A stretch of DNA of 64,000 nt from Candidatus Eiseniibacteriota bacterium. GTDB lineage: Bacteria > Orphanbacterota > Orphanbacteria > Orphanbacterales > Orphanbacteraceae. The position numbers and the translations under genes were made by a program. The DNA lies in the NCBI GenBank assembly GCA_024276995.1, contig JAJRWB010000050.1, forward strand, positions 1 through 64,000, in the 5' to 3' direction. The notes beneath the pieces were generated by a model, which was not told the DNA's origin, searched no databases, and saw only the letters and a list, made by a program, of their open reading frames with translations. Positions 54,582 to 64,000 of the stretch are shown here, one piece after another; position 1 is the first letter of the stretch, and each line of letters starts with the position of its first letter.

Positions 54582-57005
54582 CTACCGCAGGAGCACGATC
54601 TTGCGAATCAGATCCACCTGTTGAGCGGACACCCGCAAGAAATATACACCTGAACCGGCGTCTCCTGGAATGGAACTCCAGTTCCAGGCGATCTCCGTGG
54701 TTCCGGGTCGCAACAATATCGAGATCGGACCATAGACCCTTTGACCGGCCAGGTTGAATACCTCGACTCCCGCATCGAGCTCTTCTTCCGCGCTAATACG
54801 AAAGGATATGTTACGACGGCTCGGGTTCGGCATCGGCGCCAGCAACCAGATATCGGGTGTGCCGCCGACAACACTCCCGACCGTGGCGACCAGGAGTTCA
54901 TCCCCCCCCGCCCCGAACGAAAGATCCGTACGAAGTACCGGTCGTCCTCCCCCTTTGGCATGGACCACCAAACCGACATCGGATCATCGGTATCGACTTC
55001 CGCGCCGTTTTTCAGATCGATCCAAGGACCGTCTCTCGATGTGGCGTACCGAAGTGTCAGGCTTTGCGGATCCGGCGGAGTGCTGAATCGCAGGTGAATC
55101 TTCGATCCGGTCATCCGAACAGATAGAAGTTCCGCTTGCGACTCCCGGAGAAAGTCGAACCCGTAGTCGTAGATGTTGGAATGGGGATCGGTCCAGCTCA
55201 CGTGAACCCCATCACCGCCCTGGAAACTCAGGTAGGCGGACTCGATATGCTCCGGTATCGTGATGGTGCCCGCCAGGACCCCCGGCCTGTCACTCGGAAT
55301 CATCGGGCTCGAAGCCAGTTCCTGCTGTGTTCCCGTTTCCAGAAGCTGCATGACGACGTTCTTGATACCCGGGTCCAGTGCGGACTCCCCCGGACGAAAC
55401 AGCACGGTCAACGGCTCACCGGCACGTGGGTGGTAGGGATTCCACGACACCAGGTTGCAGAGAAGAGAATCCTCGACGTGAAGCACCTTGAATCGCGGCA
55501 ATCCTTCCGGCATCGTCAGTGTTCCGCGGACCTTCCCCCCCACCGAAACCGTGATCGGTTCGCCGATCGTGTTTGGTGATACGATGATTCCACCCGGAAC
55601 GCGACGGAGGATCCGTCCATTCACGGACAGGTCCGCGGGATCGATCGGCACCCCCATTCGATCCACCAGCACGATCGCTGCTCCTTCCCAGTCGGCCGGA
55701 TGACGCCCCTCCTCGCCCGTGATCAGGATCCAGTTCTTCGCGGTGAGAAAGTTCCCGTCTTCTCCCTCCTGCGCGGCTTCCACCCGGTAGGCCCCCGCCG
55801 GCAAATCCGGAACCGCCGGAAACGCACGGTTCTGAGGCTCGTCCACATATTGCATGCCCGTACCTGCGTATGTAAGCCCGCTCGTTGGAACTCGCTGTGT
55901 ATTCTCAAACACGTTATCTCGATCGAAACTGAGAAGCCACAAACCGGCCGGGTCGAGCCCGGAATCGGCGCGTCGGCTCAGGATCCCGAGAAAGGATCCT
56001 TCACGAACATCGGGCGTCGTGATCGATCTCGACCGGATCCACCTGCTGGGAGGAAAGATGCCGTCGATCGGAGTTACCCACGCACGGTCGACGGCCGCCA
56101 TGAAATCATGCGGGCCGGGTCTTTCGATTTCATCCCGCAGGGAAAGCATCAGCCGCTTGAGCGGATGCGGTCGATCCCGCCCTGCATCGATTTCCGCCGC
56201 CGCGGGAATGATGAAAGCCGAAGCGGCAGCCGCATAGGCTATGCGCCAATCGACCCGATGCGAGAGCCTCTCGAAACCACCCAGCACGAGAGGCCCCGCA
56301 TTACCGTTGAAATCCGAGTTGGCTACGTTTCGAGGAAACCCTGCCGTGTCGAACCTGCGTATGCCCTCCTCCGTCATCTGTTTCCCGACGTAATAAGTCC
56401 CCGCCTCCACCAGCCCTTCCGCGAACCACGAGGGACGAGGAACGAAGCAGGCGTCGGAAAGTTGAAAGAGGTGGCAGAGTTCATGGATGAAAACCTCGTC
56501 CCAGGCCGGATTCGTCAGACCGTCTTCATCCACTCTCCCGTCGAGATCGTTGTCCACGGAGTCGAACGGGTCCTCGTCGATCAGGCCGTCCCGGTCGTCA
56601 TCGTAACCGCTGCTGATCCTCAACGGATGCATGGAAATTAAGGATTTGTCGCACCACGCCGTGGCGCCACCGTCCGGGTCGTTGTGCATCGAGATGGTCA
56701 TGTTGTCGAGCGTTTCCGGCTCGTAAACGATCTCCATCAGGTAGGGAGTCGCCTCGTCGATCAGCTGGAGAATATAGTCAATTCTCGGTTGATGAAACGG
56801 TCGCGTCGAAACCGACCACGAAAGCATCCGCGTCGAAATACAGGATCGAATCCGGAAGTGCAGCTTTCGAGACCTCGAAATCCCCTGTACAGTACCCGTC
56901 GGCGATCTTCCCTGTGCCGATCTCGCCGCGAATCGTCCCGGCGCCGGCCAATTGAACCGCCAGCGCAAGCAGCAGCGCGATCCTATAGCGTGCGGAACAA
57001 CTCAA
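54582..57005 (-). pseudogene. Frameshifted sorted metalloprotease gene
   Basis: Three frames add up to one protein of about 800 residues. Segment 1 (from TTG 57005): signal peptide (IALLLALAVQLAGAG) and start of the mature protein, stopping at 56778. Segment 2 (to about 54930): zinc site FIHELCHLFQ with a Glu about 20 residues on (WFAEGLVEAGTYY), Asp-rich DDDRDGLIDEDPFDSVDNDL before it, and Ig-like domains after. Segment 3 (to 54582): PMPNPSRRNISFRI, GQRVYGPISILL and KIVLLR, the sorting domain. Breaks lie at about 56780-56787 (one extra base in GAGAATT) and 54927-54932. Base composition looks less GC-rich than its neighbours. A gluzincin-type extracellular protease is likely. Confidence 0.75.
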
Positions 57006-57403
57006 CGCAGCAGCCTTTCATTCGATCGATTCGCCGGTGTGAGGATACGATCCATGAAAACAGCTGAAACAGAAAGACGAAAGCCACCGAGGGCGCCGGA
57101 ATCCGTGTACAAACAGCGATTCCGCGCATGTAAGGGGACTTCGATACATACAATTCTAGCAGATGATCTGTCCTGCTTCCAGCACGGCTTGCCCGTCCCG
57201 TCCATCGCCAAAGATAGCGAGAGAATGGGAAAAACCTCGTGGGCGCCCATGACCAAAACTGGCGCGGGGAAACCTCGCCGATGCGGTCACCTTCGGGCGA
57301 AATCTCTTTCTCCCTCCCGGCTCTTCTGTAACTATGGGACCGGAAAGTCGTCAAAGGATACCGCAGGGAGCCGGAGTTTCCGGCGAACATCCGGAGTTGG
57401 AGG
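57006..57403. other. Intergenic region before the ECF sigma operon
   Basis: 398 bp without a convincing gene; short frames in it are not protein-like. It holds the predicted ECF promoter near its right end. The left part, less GC-rich, may include the old promoter of the broken protease gene. Confidence 0.5.
57327..57352 (+). promoter_or_regulatory. Candidate ECF-type autoregulatory promoter
   Basis: TGTAAC (57327-57332), 16-bp spacer, CGTC (57349-57352). The AAC and CGTC elements and spacing are those recognised by many ECF sigma factors, and it lies 52 bp before the sigma gene. Confidence 0.4.
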
Positions 57404-58003
57404 TTGACCGATTCGCCGGTTCACAACATTCGGGACGAGGCGGAACGATCGCTGCTCCGGCGGAGCGCCGGCGGTGACGGACACGCCTTCGGCGAACTCG
57501 TCCGCCGCCACCAGGACGCGGTTTTCGGCCTAGTTCAGCGGATGGTGCGCGACGAACAGCTCGCGGAGGAACTGGCGCAGGATGTCTTCATGAAGGCATA
57601 CCGGGGTCTCGCGAAGTTCCGCGGCGAGTCCGGCTTCGGGACATGGGTGTACCGGATCGCGGTGAACCACGTCCGTGACCACATGGGGAGCCGGGCGGCG
57701 CGGGACCGGAAACGGGAGAGAAGTCTCAACGGCGAGGATCTTTCCGCTTTCGAACCGGTGTCGAAACTCCCGGCCCCCGACGAGAAGGTGCAGGAGTCGG
57801 AGACGACGGAACTGTTCGGTCGCGCCCTCGATCGGCTCGACCACCATCTGAAGGAAGCGTTCCTCCTCCGCCACCAAGAGGGAAAGAGCTACGCGGAGAT
57901 GGCGGAGATTCTCGACGTGACGGAAGGAAACGCCAAGGTTCGCGTGCATCGGGGGCGGGAGAAGATTCTCGCCGCCCTCCGGGACGCGGGATACGAGGTC
58001 TGA
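57404..58003 (+). CDS. ECF-type RNA polymerase sigma factor
   Basis: 199 residues from a TTG preceded by GGAG. Sigma-2 region (DGHAFGELVRRHQDAVFGLV, EELAQDVFMKAYRGLAKFRG, WVYRIAVNHVRDHM) and sigma-4 region (LKEAFLLRHQEGKSYAEMAEILDVTEGNAKVRVHRGRE). Only regions 2 and 4 are present, the ECF layout. It heads an operon with a CBM48-bearing membrane protein, so envelope or carbohydrate signalling is implied. A matching promoter lies 52 bp upstream. Confidence 0.93.
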   Translation: MTDSPVHNIRDEAERSLLRRSAGGDGHAFGELVRRHQDAVFGLVQRMVRDEQLAEELAQDVFMKAYRGLAKFRGESGFGTWVYRIAVNHVRDHMGSRAARDRKRERSLNGEDLSAFEPVSKLPAPDEKVQESETTELFGRALDRLDHHLKEAFLLRHQEGKSYAEMAEILDVTEGNAKVRVHRGREKILAALRDAGYEV

Positions 58004-58006
58004 CCG

Positions 58007-58588
58007 ATGGATGAACGGAAAAGACGCGATCACGATCAGGATGAAAAGACGATCTGCGAGGTCGAAGAGTGGCTCCGCACGACGCGGCGGAGCGCCCCTT
58101 CCGGTTTCGCGGGCCGCGTGGAGGAAGCGATCGCCCGCGAGGAATCACGCACCGTTTCGCCGCGCGCCGCTTTCCCTGCCCGACTGCGCAGAACCCGGCC
58201 CGTCGCCGCGCTGGCGGCGCTCGCCGTCGCCGCCTCGGCGCTCTTCTTCTGGTTCCACCTCGAAGACGGCGAGGCTCCGTCCCCCTCGCCGCCCACCGCA
58301 GCCCGGACGGCCGACGCCCCGTCCGGGCTCGTAGCGTACGATTTTCTCTTCCGGGCGAAAGAGGCATCGGAGGTTTGTCTCGTGGGCGACTTCAACGAAT
58401 GGACGGTCTGCACGACCCCTCTTCGCCCGGTGGGCGACGGCCTCTGGAGGGTGACGCTCGAGCTGCCCCCCGGTCGTCACGAATATATGTTCGTCGTCGA
58501 CGACCGCTGGGAAACCGACCCGAGCGCGCCTTTCCATGCGGATGACGGGTTCGGCAACCAAAACGCCGTGGTCCTTCTCGGGGCGTGA
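58007..58588 (+). CDS. Putative anti-sigma factor with CBM48/AMPK-like domain
   Basis: 193 residues. Residues 1-60 form a charged cytoplasmic part (CEVEEWLRTTRRSAPSGFAGRVEEAI) like short anti-sigma domains, but the zinc His-x3-Cys-x2-Cys motif is absent. One transmembrane helix (about 65-84) and a Pro-rich linker lead to an extracytoplasmic CBM48/AMPK-beta-like fold (110-190) with VCLVGDFNEWT, LWRVTLELPPGRHEYMFVVD and DDRWETDP. It starts four bases after the sigma gene. The layout suggests a sensor that holds the sigma factor until a glycan is bound. The anti-sigma role is inferred from position. Confidence 0.72.
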   Translation: MDERKRRDHDQDEKTICEVEEWLRTTRRSAPSGFAGRVEEAIAREESRTVSPRAAFPARLRRTRPVAALAALAVAASALFFWFHLEDGEAPSPSPPTAARTADAPSGLVAYDFLFRAKEASEVCLVGDFNEWTVCTTPLRPVGDGLWRVTLELPPGRHEYMFVVDDRWETDPSAPFHADDGFGNQNAVVLLGA

Positions 58589-59895
58589 TCTCCTTTCACC
58601 ACAGACACTTCACGGCCGCGACGCTGGCGGCGCTTCTTCTCGCCGGACCACTGCGTTCCTCCGCATCGATCGCCCTCCCGCCGGGCGCCTTCACACTGCG
58701 TGCCGACTCCGGCTTCGACTCCGAGGTGCTCTCCGATCCGACCGGCCTCGGCGTGGTGGACGCCGTGGACGCACCCTTCGCGTCCGCCGCGTTCGACTTC
58801 CACCTCTCCCGCCTCGGACCGGCGACGAGGAAGAGCCGTTTCCGGACCGGCGTCCGTGCATCGCTCACCCGCTACGGGAACGACGGCCCAAAGAGCGATA
58901 CCGATCTTCGGGGACATCTGTCATGGGAGCGTCGGATCGACGCCGACCTCCTCGCGAATCTTCGAGCCGAGATCGGAAGGTTCCGGCGCGCCGACCTTCC
59001 TCTATTCGACTGGGATTTCTTCGATATCGAAGGAACGCTGACCCGCCCGATCGGCGAGCGGTGGTACGGCGGAGCGGGAGGGACTTACACGCTACTCGAC
59101 TACCCGGGCCGCCTGATCGACAACGAAAGCGGCGACGGCGAGAGAGATCACCGGACGGACGGTCGCCTCTTCCTGGTGCGCCGGTTGTCGCCAACCGCCT
59201 TCCTCGAGGGGTCGGCGACGTGGCGAAGCAACGCCTCGAACGATACGCTCGCCGAATACGATGGCCCCATCATGGAAGTGCGCACGGCGTTCGGCAGACC
59301 CGAGCGGCTCCGGATGCTGATCTACGCATCGGCGGCGCTTCGCTCATATCCATCATACCCTCTTTTCGAAGCATCGGGAGACACGCTCGTTCAGACGACC
59401 GGACATCGAAAGGACACGACGATCTGGTTCGGCGCCGTCTCGGAGCGGACGATCCGTCCCCGTCTCTCCCTCCTCGTCGACATCGCCCTTCTCCACCAGA
59501 CGTCGAACGTGAGCAGCTTCGAGTTCGACCAGGTCCGCGTAACGGCGGGAGTGCGTGTCGACCTGTGGAGAAAAGAAGCGTCGGCGATGGTGGCGGCGGC
59601 GACGCCTCCTCTCGCGCCGGTGCGAGCGGCGTCGGGCCGCGTCCTCTTCCTCTGCCGCGCGCCCCGGGCGGGCAAGGTGATCCTCGTCGGCGGCTGGAAC
59701 GGCTGGCGCGCGGATCTCCAGCCGATGAGCGGACCGGACGAGGCGGGAATCTGGAGAATCGAGGTGGACGTGCCGGAAGGGACGTGGCGGTACGCTTTCA
59801 TCATAGACGGGGAGTGGGTAAAGCCGGAAGGGGCGATGCGATATGAGGCGGACGGCTTCGGCGGGGTGCTCGGCATCCTGGACGGAGGTCTGTAA
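58585..59895 (+). CDS. Outer-membrane barrel-like protein with C-terminal CBM48 domain
   Basis: 436 residues from a GTG overlapping the previous stop. Signal peptide (AATLAALLLAGPLRSSA), then about 300 residues of alternating beta-strands (for example FDFHLSRLG, RTGVRASLTRYG, WYGGAGGTYTLLDYPG, EFDQVRVTAGVRVDLW) as in an outer-membrane barrel. The last 90 residues are a CBM48/AMPK-like domain: VILVGGWNGWRADLQPM, IWRIEVDVPEGTWRYAFIID, YEADGFGGVLGIL. A glycan-binding surface protein controlled by the sigma factor seems likely. Confidence 0.72.
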   Translation: MISFHHRHFTAATLAALLLAGPLRSSASIALPPGAFTLRADSGFDSEVLSDPTGLGVVDAVDAPFASAAFDFHLSRLGPATRKSRFRTGVRASLTRYGNDGPKSDTDLRGHLSWERRIDADLLANLRAEIGRFRRADLPLFDWDFFDIEGTLTRPIGERWYGGAGGTYTLLDYPGRLIDNESGDGERDHRTDGRLFLVRRLSPTAFLEGSATWRSNASNDTLAEYDGPIMEVRTAFGRPERLRMLIYASAALRSYPSYPLFEASGDTLVQTTGHRKDTTIWFGAVSERTIRPRLSLLVDIALLHQTSNVSSFEFDQVRVTAGVRVDLWRKEASAMVAAATPPLAPVRAASGRVLFLCRAPRAGKVILVGGWNGWRADLQPMSGPDEAGIWRIEVDVPEGTWRYAFIIDGEWVKPEGAMRYEADGFGGVLGILDGGL

Positions 59896-59898
59896 CTT

Positions 59899-59914
59899 CG
59901 GCGCCCGGGCGCCG
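59899..59914. repeat. Perfect 16-bp palindrome
   Basis: CGGCGCCCGGGCGCCG lies between the barrel gene and the next gene. It could be a weak hairpin or a protein site. Confidence 0.35.
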
Positions 59915-59941
59915 TCCAAGGAAACAGCAAGGAGATCGGCC

Positions 59942-60994
59942 ATGGATCGGAACGAAATAGATCGACAGGGAATCCCGGGGAAGAGAGCCGTCGTGCCGCT
60001 CGCCCTCCTTCTTCTGACCACGATCCTCGCGTTTCCGGCGGATGCCGATGAAGACCTTCCGGCGCCTCTCTCCGTGTCGATCGAGGGGGCGGTTTCCCGT
60101 CTCGGTCTTTCGAGGATCCAGGCGCTCATCCTGAAGGAAGACACGGCGGCCGCCCTGCGGGGCGGCGCCGATCCCGTCCTGTTCGCCACGCTGATCGATC
60201 GACTCGCCGCCTCGGGATCTTCACCCGACGATCTCGCCGAGATCGCCCGCCGGGCGCGCCGCCTCTCCGAGGGAGAACTCCCCCCCGGTCCCGTGCTCGA
60301 CCGTTACCTGCAGGGTCTGTCGAAAGGGGTTCCCCTCGACCGGATCCGGTCGGTGGCGGACGGCATCGAGGAGCGGCTCCGACTCTTCGCTTCACTCGTC
60401 GCCGAGCGGGTGCCCGGATTCCGAATGCGGGGCACCCGCAAGGAACGTCTCGAGCTGATCTCCGAAGGGGCGTACGCCCTCGACGCCGGCGCACCCGCGA
60501 AGCATCTCGGCAAAGCGATCTCTCTCGACGCCGCCCCCGACCGTCCGTTCGCCGATATGGAAGCCCCCGTTCTCGCCCTGGGATGTCTCGTTGCGGGGGG
60601 CATCACGCCCGACCGGTCGCTCGAAGTGATCGAAACGGCCCATGCCCACGGGATGCGGGGGCCGGACCTCGAACGGATCGGACGGGATCTCGCCCTGGCG
60701 GCGACTCGGAACAACGGCGTGCCGACCGACCCGATGGTCGACGAGGTTCTCCTCATGCTCCGGGGGGGAGAACGGATCGATCATATCGCGGGATATCTCG
60801 AGACGATGTGCGAAGAAGAGCGAGGCCGCGCCCCGGGAACGAGCCCGATGGATGACCCGTCGATGATGCACGGACCGGGAGGGTCTCCCGAAGATCCGGG
60901 TCACCAGGGAACTCACGGCCACGGCGGTCATGGCGAGGGGATGGGCGGCGGACACTCGGGGGGTCAGAATGAGGGAGGCCATCACGGAATGTGA
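59942..60994 (+). CDS. Secreted helical protein with His/Gly-rich tail
   Basis: 350 residues; AAGGAG upstream of the ATG, signal peptide ending about residue 36 (LALLLLTTILAFPADA). The body is alpha-helical with repeated Leu/Ala/Arg heptads (LSRIQALILKEDTAAALRGG, DDLAEIARRARRLSEG, LERIGRDLALAATRN). The last 50 residues are Met/His/Gly-rich (MMHGPGGSPEDPGH, THGHGGHGEGMGGGH), a possible metal-binding tail. No family is recognised. It closes the sigma operon. Confidence 0.65.
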   Translation: MDRNEIDRQGIPGKRAVVPLALLLLTTILAFPADADEDLPAPLSVSIEGAVSRLGLSRIQALILKEDTAAALRGGADPVLFATLIDRLAASGSSPDDLAEIARRARRLSEGELPPGPVLDRYLQGLSKGVPLDRIRSVADGIEERLRLFASLVAERVPGFRMRGTRKERLELISEGAYALDAGAPAKHLGKAISLDAAPDRPFADMEAPVLALGCLVAGGITPDRSLEVIETAHAHGMRGPDLERIGRDLALAATRNNGVPTDPMVDEVLLMLRGGERIDHIAGYLETMCEEERGRAPGTSPMDDPSMMHGPGGSPEDPGHQGTHGHGGHGEGMGGGHSGGQNEGGHHGM

Positions 60995-61057: not shown

Positions 61058-61399
61058 TCAGAAGATCTCTTTTCCTTTCTCCCCGGTGCTGATCCGCACG
61101 GCGTCCTCGACGGAAAGCACGATGATCAATCCGTCTCCGCGAAGGCCGGTATGGGCCGTATCCCGGATTGTCGTGACGATTCCGGGCGCAAGGTCCGCCT
61201 TGCAGACGATCTCCACCTTGCAGTGCTTCTCGAAATCACCGACGAATTTGTCCGGGTGGTCCTTGAGATCCCGGTGCCTCCCTCTTCCCCAGCCTCTCAC
61301 GTCGGAAACGGTCATTCCCGTGATACCCGACACGCCGTGCAGCGCGAGAGTCACATCGGTCAGCTTGTGCGGTTGAATGAATGCCTTGATCAGTTTCAT
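61058..61399 (-). CDS. Degenerate P-II-family protein linked to RND efflux
   Basis: 113 residues from the ATG at 61399. It has the P-II fold: MKLIKAFIQPHKLTDVTLAL, VSDVRGWGRGRHRDL, CKVEIVCKADLAPGIVTTI and the nucleotide loop HTGLRGDGLIIVLSVEDAVRI. The T-loop lacks the uridylylated Tyr of GlnB and has a charged, shortened loop. It starts ten bases after the stop of a CzcA-type RND pump gene. Such P-II relatives next to metal RND pumps are known in many genomes; they may sense nucleotides or metals. It is not a classical nitrogen regulator. Confidence 0.85.
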   Translation of the reverse strand: MKLIKAFIQPHKLTDVTLALHGVSGITGMTVSDVRGWGRGRHRDLKDHPDKFVGDFEKHCKVEIVCKADLAPGIVTTIRDTAHTGLRGDGLIIVLSVEDAVRISTGEKGKEIF

Positions 61400-61409
61400 T
61401 GTTTTCCTC

Positions 61410-64000
61410 TCACGCGGTTCGAGTTGACTTTTCCTGCGCAGGCGCATGGGCGAACCACTTGTAGACGGCGGGGATTACGAGAAGTGTGAGCAGTGTGGAC
61501 GTGAAAAGTCCCCCGACGACGACCGTCGCCAATGGACGCTGCACCTCACTCCCCGTTCCCTGCGCCACGAGCAGCGGAATCAGCCCCAGCGCCGTGGTCG
61601 TGGCGGTCATGAGCACCGGCCGCATTCGGAGCAAGGCACCCCGCACGGATGCCTCGTCCACCGGCACACCTTCACGCAAGAGCTGATTGAGATACATGAC
61701 CAGAACCATGCCGTTCTCGAGGGCGATGCCGAAGAGGGCGATGAAACCGACCGATGCGGGAACAGAGAGATTCTGCCCCGTTATCCATAGCGCGGCGATA
61801 CCTCCCACCAGAGCAAGCGGAATATTGAGGAGAATGAGCAGTGAATTCTGGAGCGACTGAAAACTGCTGAAGAGAAGAAGGAAGATCACAAGCAGTGTGG
61901 CCGGCACCACCACGGTGAGCCGTTTGTTCGCCTCCTGTTGAAGCCTGAACTGCCCACCCCACTTTACGAGATAGCCCGGCGGGAGCGCGGCCTCCTCGCC
62001 GATCGCCGCCTGGGCTTCCTCGACGAACGAGCCGATATCCCGGTCCACCACGTTGCACTGGATCGTGATGAAACGCTGGTTGTCTTCCCGGGTGATTTGG
62101 CGGGGACCGATGATTTCCTCCACCGAGGCGAGTTCGTCAAGAGGCACTTTCACATGGCCGGGCGCGTTGATCAGAACATGACGGATCGCATCGGCCGTGT
62201 TCCGCGCCTCCGGTTCGTACCGGACCAGGATATCGAAGCGCCGGATCCCCTCGAAGATCTCCCCCGCCACCACTCCACCGACTGCGGCGCGAACCACTTC
62301 CTGAACATCCGATACGTTGATCCCGTACCGGGCGATCGCCCCCCGATCGATACGAACGAGAAGCTGCGGCGCCCCGCTCACCTGGTCCACCTGCACGTCG
62401 GCCGCGCCTCGGATCCGGCGGATCACGGAAGCCACATTGTCGGCTTCCCGCCGAAGCACGTCGAGATCGTCGCCGAAAAGCTTGATGGCCAGTTCTGCGC
62501 GCACTCCTTCAAGAAGTTCGTCCACCGTCATCTCGATCGGCTGTGTCAGGTTGACGAGCACACCGGGAACATTGCCGAGTTCTTCCCGGATTACATCCTC
62601 GATCTCCTCCTGGCTCCCCGCTTCCCGCCATTCCTCCTTCGGCTTGAGAAGCACATAGATCTCGGCGCTGTTGATCGGATCGGAGTGGGCGCCCACTTCC
62701 CCCCGGCCGATCCGGGTGACCACCTCGCGAACTTCAGATATGCGGCGAAGTCTGCGCTCCACAATCAACGTTGTCCTCTTGCTCTCTTCGAGAGAGATGG
62801 AAGGCGCCATGGTGAGACGCACCACAATGGTACCCTCTCTGAGCTTCGGCGTGAATTCCGAACCGAGACGGGGAAAAACGAGGGCCCCCGCCAGAAGAAG
62901 AACCGCGGCGAGGCCGACGGCGACCCACCGGTGATGCACGAAGAATGTGACCACCGGCCGATACGGCTTCAGCAAAGCCCTCACGATCCACGCTTCCTTA
63001 CCCCCCGTCTTGGGGGGACGCATCACCATATGACCCAGCATGGGGGCGAGCATGAGAGCGAAAATCAAAGAACCGAACATGGCGAAGGCGACCGTGTAGG
63101 CGAGAGGGCGGAATGTCTTCCCCTCCACGCCCTGAAGCGTGAAGAGAGGGAGAAACACGATAATGATGATCGAAATGGCGAAGAGGATCGGACGGCCCAC
63201 TTCATGGCATGCCCGTGTGACCACGACAAGGCGGGATTCCCGGGGGCCCGCCTCCCTGAGCATGCGATCGATATTCTCTACAATGACAATTGTACCATCC
63301 ACCATCATCCCGATGGCGATGGCGAGTCCGCCCAGGGACATGAGGTTCGCCGATATACGAAAATACCCCATCAAGAGAAACGCGAACAGGACGGAGAATG
63401 GGATTGCCACGGCCACCACGAGGCTGGGCCGGAATCCCCCCATGAAGACGAGCAGCACGAGGGTGACCAGCACGATTCCCTGCACGAGGGCGCTCGTGAC
63501 CGTGCGGACCGCCGCTTCGACGAGACTCTTCTGCTCGTAGTACGGCACAACGCGGACCCCCGGCGGCAGAATCCGGTTGATCTCCTCGAGGCGCGCCTCC
63601 ACGCCGGCGATCACCGTGGAGGAGTTGGTACCGAAGAGCTTGATCACCATTCCGGAAACGACCTCGCCCACGCCGTTTCGCGTCTGGATGCCGCGACGAA
63701 CCGCGCCGCCCAACTGAATGTCGGCCACGTCGTTCAAGAAGAGCGGCCGGCCGTCATCGGTCTTGATGACGATCGAACGGAGGTCGTCCATGGAAGTCGC
63801 CAATCCGACGGAACGGACCACGAACTCCTCCGAGTTCTTCTCGATGAACTGCGCGCCCACGCTCAGGTTGTTGTCGCGAATCCGGTCGACCACTTCGCTG
63901 AGGGTCACGCCGAAGCGGATCAGTTCCTCGGGATGAATGACAACCTGGAACTGTTTCTCAAAGCCTCCGATGCCGAGAACTTCCGTAACGCCGGGCACCG
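61410..64000 (-). CDS. CusA/CzcA-type heavy-metal RND pump (N-terminus outside window)
   Basis: The frame is open to the right edge; 863 residues are present and about 170 are missing. Porter and membrane domains fit HME-RND: SLGGLAIAIGMMVDGTIVIVEN (TM4 with the proton-relay Asp and Glu), FRPLAYTVAFAMFGS, GSEFTPKLREGTIVVRL. The porter stretch QPIEMTVDELLEGVRAELAI resembles CzcA (FNELISGVRS) rather than the Met-containing CusA, which points to a divalent metal such as Zn, Co, Ni or Cd. The adaptor and outer-membrane channel genes are probably beyond the edge. Confidence 0.92.
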   Translation of the reverse strand, partial: VPGVTEVLGIGGFEKQFQVVIHPEELIRFGVTLSEVVDRIRDNNLSVGAQFIEKNSEEFVVRSVGLATSMDDLRSIVIKTDDGRPLFLNDVADIQLGGAVRRGIQTRNGVGEVVSGMVIKLFGTNSSTVIAGVEARLEEINRILPPGVRVVPYYEQKSLVEAAVRTVTSALVQGIVLVTLVLLVFMGGFRPSLVVAVAIPFSVLFAFLLMGYFRISANLMSLGGLAIAIGMMVDGTIVIVENIDRMLREAGPRESRLVVVTRACHEVGRPILFAISIIIIVFLPLFTLQGVEGKTFRPLAYTVAFAMFGSLIFALMLAPMLGHMVMRPPKTGGKEAWIVRALLKPYRPVVTFFVHHRWVAVGLAAVLLLAGALVFPRLGSEFTPKLREGTIVVRLTMAPSISLEESKRTTLIVERRLRRISEVREVVTRIGRGEVGAHSDPINSAEIYVLLKPKEEWREAGSQEEIEDVIREELGNVPGVLVNLTQPIEMTVDELLEGVRAELAIKLFGDDLDVLRREADNVASVIRRIRGAADVQVDQVSGAPQLLVRIDRGAIARYGINVSDVQEVVRAAVGGVVAGEIFEGIRRFDILVRYEPEARNTADAIRHVLINAPGHVKVPLDELASVEEIIGPRQITREDNQRFITIQCNVVDRDIGSFVEEAQAAIGEEAALPPGYLVKWGGQFRLQQEANKRLTVVVPATLLVIFLLLFSSFQSLQNSLLILLNIPLALVGGIAALWITGQNLSVPASVGFIALFGIALENGMVLVMYLNQLLREGVPVDEASVRGALLRMRPVLMTATTTALGLIPLLVAQGTGSEVQRPLATVVVGGLFTSTLLTLLVIPAVYKWFAHAPAQEKSTRTA

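Follow-up and report, generated by a model that had tools for sequence, protein, structure and literature searches.

A conserved four-gene ECF sigma factor cassette with AMPK-type glycogen-binding folds on its predicted anti-sigma factor and on a probable outer membrane barrel

What would a bacterial transcriptional switch sense if two of its envelope proteins carried the fold with which AMP-activated protein kinase (AMPK) binds glycogen? This question is raised by an operon at positions 57404-60994 of a 64,000-nucleotide stretch from a Candidatus Eiseniibacteriota bacterium (contig JAJRWB010000050.1, positions 1 to 64,000; hereafter, the window). A preliminary description made from the sequence alone had read it as an extracytoplasmic function (ECF) sigma factor, a membrane protein with a carbohydrate-binding module (CBM), a barrel-like protein with the same module, and a secreted protein, and all four genes are indeed present on the plus strand. 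Here, we consider it probable that they form an autoregulated trans-envelope sigma switch, comparable to RsgI and FecR systems, in which the signal read by the CBM-fold domains is a partner protein or a noncanonical glycan. The evidence obtained directly consists of the gene content, the fold, the conservation and coinheritance of the parts, a promoter motif, and the loss of a glycogen-contact lysine. The four genes are as follows.

57404-58003, plus strand: gene 1, ECF sigma factor, TTG start (Pfam Sigma70_r2 and Sigma70_r4_2; NCBIfam sigma70-ECF TIGR02937)
58007-58588, plus strand: gene 2, single-pass anti-sigma-like membrane protein with a predicted periplasmic AMPK1_CBM domain (Pfam, NCBIfam, AlphaFold)
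58585-59895, plus strand: gene 3, beta-rich probable outer membrane barrel with a signal peptide and a C-terminal AMPK1_CBM domain, GTG start (Pfam; low-confidence model)
59942-60994, plus strand: gene 4, secreted protein with a 'LQGLSKGVPLDR' motif and a His/Gly-rich tail (sequence; homologues in Gemmatimonadota)

RESULTS

An ECF sigma factor followed by a candidate anti-sigma factor

Only 3 bases separate the stop codon of the sigma gene from the start of gene 2, and genes 2 and 3 share 4 bases, in agreement with the close spacing and the overlap described earlier. Gene 4 very probably starts at the ATG at 59942 rather than at the longer open reading frame (ORF) start at 59843, since a ribosome-binding site (AAGGAG) lies just 5′ of that ATG. 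Gene 1 matched Pfam Sigma70_r2 (E=1.3e-17) and Sigma70_r4_2 (E=3.2e-14) and scored 112.3 bits against the NCBIfam model sigma70-ECF TIGR02937, for which the cutoff is 42.9. Having regions 2 and 4 only and an ECF-type profile, it is an ECF sigma factor.

AlphaFold, run with 21 homologues, modelled gene 2 as two helices (residues 3-27 and 34-49), then a hydrophobic helix (66-84) that is the predicted membrane anchor, and finally a beta-sandwich (109-191).

58202-58258, plus strand: predicted transmembrane helix of gene 2, residues 66-84 (AlphaFold helix; hydropathy peak of 2.07 at residue 65)

A hydrophobic segment lies ahead of the CBM in 59 of 60 gene 2 homologues, and because Arg and Lys are in excess before it (269 in the preceding 20 residues versus 110 after the segment), the N terminus is expected in the cytoplasm and the CBM outside it. 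The protein has the features of a class I membrane anti-sigma factor, namely, adjacency to the sigma gene, N-terminal helices, and one transmembrane helix, and in all loci but one, the distance from the sigma gene to the anti-sigma gene is −14 to +4 bp, so that the two overlap or adjoin.

Could gene 2 instead encode a membrane-anchored envelope protein that merely sits in the operon of a sigma factor controlled otherwise? The window protein matched the NCBIfam "anti-sigma factor" profile weakly (E=1.3e-4, far under the curated cutoff), and the zinc motif HxxxCxxC is absent from 59 of the 60 homologues, both of which would fit this alternative. Against it, the same profile was matched by 10 of 21 members of the gene 2 family, with a best E value of 7.9e-14; class I anti-sigma factors without zinc are common (PMC7406223); and the gene always lies directly 3′ of the sigma gene with coupled starts and encodes a helical N-terminal, cytosolic part followed by a single hydrophobic helix. 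We regard the alternative as improbable and infer that gene 2 is an anti-sigma factor that would inhibit gene 1. The sigma/anti-sigma arrangement that the preliminary description had deduced from gene position thus gains support from the helices and the profile matches of the relatives as well.

Both envelope proteins carry a predicted AMPK-beta glycogen-binding fold

The domains in question occupy the C termini of genes 2 and 3; the confidence of the models is given as the predicted local distance difference test (pLDDT).

58331-58579, plus strand: AMPK1_CBM/CBM48 domain of gene 2, residues 109-191 (Pfam; pLDDT 96 to 98 over residues 111-190; Foldseek match to the AMPK-beta glycogen-binding domain at E of about 1e-7)
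59632-59883, plus strand: AMPK1_CBM/CBM48 domain of gene 3, residues 350-433 (Pfam; pLDDT mostly 79 to 93; best Foldseek match 1z0m, the AMPK-beta1 glycogen-binding domain)

It had been proposed that both folds are of the CBM48 type, with domain profiles as a check. Both domains scored above the Pfam cutoffs for AMPK1_CBM and CBM_48 (E=4.9e-13 and 3.2e-6 for gene 2; E=5.9e-7 and 4.1e-5 for gene 3), the best PDB matches by sequence were AMPK-beta glycogen-binding domains, and the Foldseek structural matches of both were again AMPK-beta glycogen-binding domains. The profile, sequence, and model data concur that each C-terminal domain, as modelled, has the AMPK-beta glycogen-binding fold, and the proposal of extracytoplasmic CBM48-type domains on both proteins is supported. 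The accompanying remark that CBM48 domains are normally intracellular does not hold up in this genome, where amylases and a pullulanase with AMPK1_CBM domains appear to be secreted. An origin of the two cassette domains by duplication was considered, and the tree of the CBM domains (97 columns) gave no resolution. An unexpected fusion was observed elsewhere in the same genome, where a ParA/MinD-type ATPase (L044:3597-4688; AAA_31 E=4.2e-53) ends in an AMPK1_CBM domain (E=5.6e-13).

The cassette is conserved in several phyla

The gene 4 profile was found in 76 of 121 Gemmatimonadota genomes, at up to 3 copies per genome. When gene 4 loci of this phylum were taken with their flanks, sigma, CBM anti-sigma, and gene 4 stood together in 37 of 40; the exceptions were two loci in which the contig end adjoins the anti-sigma gene (L107 and L108) and one with no neighboring sigma found (L139). 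In 33 loci, the barrel gene with its CBM tail was found as well, divergently transcribed in a few of them, and four Gemmatimonadota loci (L109, L115, L121, and L132) carry a second gene 4-like gene 3′ of the barrel gene. Of 20 Gemmatimonadota genomes with gene 4, all had a full-length CBM anti-sigma, as did 1 of 20 without gene 4 (Fisher, 3e-10, uncorrected for relatedness).

For the search of other contigs, a profile from a six-row alignment was used; gene 2 as a single-protein query gave no match in that search. Outside Gemmatimonadota, the sigma-CBM anti-sigma pair was detected at L148, L149, L150, L152, L162, L168, L171, and L175 and twice in genome G020. L149 and L150 are from Eisenbacteria and L152 is from Nitrospira, and L150 matches the window in gene order, with genes of similar sizes. 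The phyla represented besides Gemmatimonadota are Eisenbacteria, Nitrospirota, Myxococcota, Thermodesulfobacteriota, and others, although most of these carriers are metagenome-assembled genomes, whose taxon labels could be wrong. The recurrence of the operon in several phyla contradicts a chance grouping, and the synteny check that had been suggested for the sigma, CBM, and barrel genes came out positive.

Among seven genomes of the phylum of the window, the gene 4 profile matched only the window's own genome and was absent from the six others. For this reason, a recent transfer from Gemmatimonadota was considered; the sigma tree opposes it, placing the window sigma beside those of Eisenbacteria L150, G020, and Myxococcota/Syntrophales, on long branches. 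Since this position falls outside the Gemmatimonadota clade, the tree suggests that the cassette in this genome is old or came from elsewhere than Gemmatimonadota.

A putative ECF-type promoter recurs within the operon

A bipartite motif of the type read by ECF sigma factors was found twice in the operon in the same exact form.

57327-57352, plus strand: putative ECF-type promoter TGTAAC-N16-CGTC, 5′ of the sigma gene (TGTAAC at 57327-57332, CGTC at 57349-57352)
59891-59916, plus strand: second exact copy of TGTAAC-N16-CGTC, between genes 3 and 4 (genome motif scan)

The more general pattern GT[AG]AC-N15-18-[CG]GT[CAT] lies 5′ of the sigma gene at 28 of 59 loci, compared with a mean of 2.4 and a maximum of 8 in dinucleotide shuffles, an excess that is somewhat inflated because the pattern was picked after viewing the same sequences. 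In the 3.76-Mb genome, the exact motif gave 6 matches and its reversed control none. Only the copies at 57327 and 59891 precede gene starts; a search of the whole genome for a wider regulon with the exact motif found the four matches outside the operon to be all inside genes. The motif precedes the sigma gene and recurs within the operon, which suggests that the operon is autoregulated, with no sign of a wide regulon.

The ligand site speaks against glycogen as the ligand

In AMPK-beta, W100, K126, W133, L146, and T148 contact carbohydrate, and their mutation markedly lowers glycogen binding (PMC2642990); N150 was later added to these contact residues (PMC4032982). The corresponding positions were compared between the cassette domains and 88 control AMPK1_CBM domains on long ORFs of the fetched loci, which included the amylases and pullulanase of the window genome. 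W100 is invariant among the 60 cassette anti-sigma domains, W133 is found in 46, and N150 in 40. The 44 barrel domains likewise have an invariant W100, with W133 in 39 and N150 in only 3. K126 is present in none of either set, its position in the anti-sigma domains being taken mostly by A, M, or Q, whereas 81 of the 88 controls retain it. In the window itself, the gene 2 domain has W100, W133, and N150, with M at the K126 position; the gene 3 domain has W100 and W133, with A at the K126 position and L at that of N150. The uniform loss of K126 in the cassette, set against its retention in the controls, speaks against canonical glycogen binding and in favor of some other ligand. Both domains thus belong to CBM48 in fold, from which glycogen binding should not be presumed.

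These data bear on the best-surviving alternative, in which the anti-sigma CBM binds a starch- or glycogen-like polymer or its oligomers and frees the sigma factor for glucan use, as RsgI systems do for cellulose. The AMPK glycogen-binding fold, the invariant W100 and the frequent W133 speak for it, as does the presence in the same genome of a pullulanase and of amylases, the latter bearing as many as three AMPK1_CBM domains; moreover, plant AKINbeta2 binds starch although it lacks both K126 and N150 (PMC4032982). On the other side stand the loss of K126 in the cassette but not in the enzyme-borne domains and the near absence of N150 from the barrel domains. Functional neighbors recurring with the cassette were sought across the loci, and no glycoside hydrolase, transporter, or alpha-glucan gene recurs beside it, the flanking genes varying between lineages. 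Furthermore, the exact promoter motif precedes no amylase gene in the genome, and the pullulanase follows a different ECF sigma factor with a zinc-finger anti-sigma. We therefore consider an alpha-glucan sensor rather unlikely, and the sensing or binding of an alpha-glucan put forward in the preliminary description is unsupported as a statement of specificity.

Two glucan-related loci of the same genome were recorded along the way. At L045:2807-7451, the further ECF sigma factor, a zf-HC2 zinc-finger anti-sigma, and the AMPK1_CBM-bearing pullulanase stand in a row, so that this sigma factor may be the one that controls the pullulanase. L043:3973-15805 holds an amylase with a triple AMPK1_CBM together with several further ORFs, two of them with AMPK1_CBM; similar genes occur in same-family genomes, in G072 (L061), and in the metagenome-assembled genome DHS20C21 (L173).

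Genes 3 and 4 and the surroundings of the operon

The first 340 residues of gene 3 were modelled poorly (pLDDT about 25 to 65), yet they contain a signal peptide and long beta hairpins, and the relative in L150 matched OMP_b-brl below the cutoff (E=0.0038). Given the low confidence of the model, the outer membrane location is based on the signal peptide, the hairpins, and this one subthreshold family match, and gene 3 is a probable outer membrane beta-barrel by prediction. FadL was returned by Foldseek for the barrel and was rejected, as a root mean square deviation of 27 is not meaningful. Of the barrel-like protein with a C-terminal CBM fold that had been proposed, the fold and the beta-rich character are borne out, and the signal peptide and strand pattern would suit a closed transmembrane barrel. 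Both termini of outer membrane barrels normally face the periplasm, and for this reason the CBM behind the barrel is more likely periplasmic than surface exposed, which makes the earlier placement of the domain at the surface doubtful.

Gene 4 and its relatives matched no Pfam family, and the protein is probably mostly helical, judged from its sequence. It had been described as a His-rich secreted protein. It does appear secreted, with a His/Gly-rich tail in this genome; of 47 relatives, only 3 have 5 or more His among their final 40 residues, and the tail was discarded as a conserved metal feature. Downstream, on the minus strand and convergent with the operon, lie a P-II-like gene (61058-61447; P-II E=8.6e-18) and an RND-type efflux transporter ORF (61410-63998). 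That the operon is a metal-stress system, as the His/Gly-rich tail of gene 4 and these two neighbors could be taken to indicate, is very improbable, since so few relatives have the tail, the flanking genes differ by lineage, and the convergent P-II-like gene is outside the operon.

Upstream of the operon, at 54582-57005 of the window on the minus strand, a signal-peptide start (57005-56778) is in a different frame from a protease-like middle with HELCHLF (ORF 56968-54608), and a type IX secretion system-like C-terminal sorting domain (54971-54582) is in another frame. These splits are apparent frameshifts, by assembly error or decay.

DISCUSSION

In the sigma switch that we favor, the short N-terminal helices of gene 2 would hold the ECF sigma factor at the inner membrane in the resting state, and its periplasmic CBM48-fold domain would be the sensor. 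This sensor would probably read the co-encoded partners, that is, gene 3, with its own CBM-fold domain in the periplasm, and/or gene 4; a noncanonical glycan could replace or join these protein contacts. Upon a signal, we infer, regulated intramembrane proteolysis would most likely put the anti-sigma out of action, and the sigma factor, once released, would transcribe its own operon from the GTAAC-N16-CGTC promoters. A more far-reaching reading is possible, although we hold it only tentatively: the cassette could represent TonB-independent cell-surface signaling, in which two repurposed glycogen-binding folds, borne by the inner membrane anti-sigma and by an outer membrane barrel, and a dedicated periplasmic protein relay the state of the envelope through the periplasm to an ECF sigma factor, as a class widespread in Gemmatimonadota and scattered in several other phyla.

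Several points weigh against the switch as drawn. Its support is genomic together with predicted structure, and the barrel part of gene 3 is modelled at low confidence. In about 10 cassettes, the fetched stretch yielded no barrel gene, and the lineage with a divergent barrel gene (L054, L101, L106, and L151) has no clear match to the promoter motif. The ligand-site counts are not independent, as the domains share common ancestry. In addition, special coevolution of the anti-sigma CBM with the barrel CBM was sought by partial correlation and was not found (0.09). In favor of the switch, all six cassette parts covary, with distance correlations from 0.62 to 0.87, and the strongest partial correlation joins gene 4 to the gene 3 CBM (0.45). 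Because this link stands out but the one between the two CBMs does not, the correlations weakly suggest that gene 4 may act as a bridge.

How does the cassette relate to known systems? The SigI/RsgI systems of Clostridium thermocellum (PMC12203970, PMC4711584, PMC6056542) resemble it in that a single-pass anti-sigma holds the sigma factor, the external C-terminal domain of the anti-sigma is often a CBM, and several paralogous copies occur per genome. They differ in that SigI is not an ECF sigma factor and the systems are Gram positive, with other CBM types (e.g., CBM3), a periplasmic autocleavage domain, and cellulosome targets, whereas the cassette combines an ECF sigma factor, diderm phyla, an AMPK1-type domain without the glycogen-contact lysine, a CBM-tailed barrel, and gene 4. 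No cassette protein matched an RsgI family in Pfam or NCBIfam, so that the cassette would work like SigI/RsgI without being a member. FecI/FecR/FecA (PMC9249621, PMC11637429) likewise encodes together an ECF sigma factor, an inner membrane anti-sigma, and an outer membrane barrel with a periplasmic domain. The cassette differs from it in having CBM48-fold modules, predicted to be periplasmic, on both sides and the additional conserved gene 4; the Pfam scan of genes 2 and 3 gave neither a FecR domain nor a TonB-dependent receptor, which places it outside that family.

The sigma-E/RseA envelope stress response also pairs an ECF sigma factor, RpoE, whose profile gene 1 resembles, with a membrane anti-sigma, and the cassette would share its outer membrane protein feedback if our model is right. 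RseA, RseB, and DegS features were not seen in the cassette, however, and the fold of its sensor domain differs. ECF52 SCO4117 of Streptomyces coelicolor (PMC8999054) is another ECF system with an extracytoplasmic carbohydrate-binding domain, but in that protein CBM and sigma factor are fused, while in the cassette a separate anti-sigma bears the CBM. With the glycogen-binding domain of AMPK-beta (PDB 1z0m and 4yef), the cassette domains share the fold, the W100 equivalent, and mostly that of W133; they differ in being extracytoplasmic, by prediction, and in having lost the K126 equivalent in all members examined. A literature search, with subscription papers outside its scope, found no paper linking AMPK1_CBM or CBM48 to an anti-sigma factor. 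The cassette is thus apparently an undescribed variant of ECF sigma/anti-sigma systems.

ECF systems linked to an anti-sigma factor are unusually numerous in Gemmatimonadota (about 79%; PMC7406223), and for most of them the signal is unknown. The cassette, which about two thirds of the sampled genomes of this phylum carry, offers defined genes, a promoter motif, and residues for testing. The loss of one ligand-contact residue relative to same-family controls makes the choice between a glycan sensor and a protein relay directly testable. More broadly, the cassette, found in several phyla, places the fold with which AMPK senses glycogen in the sensing part of what is probably a bacterial switch of transcription, and it does so on two envelope proteins together.

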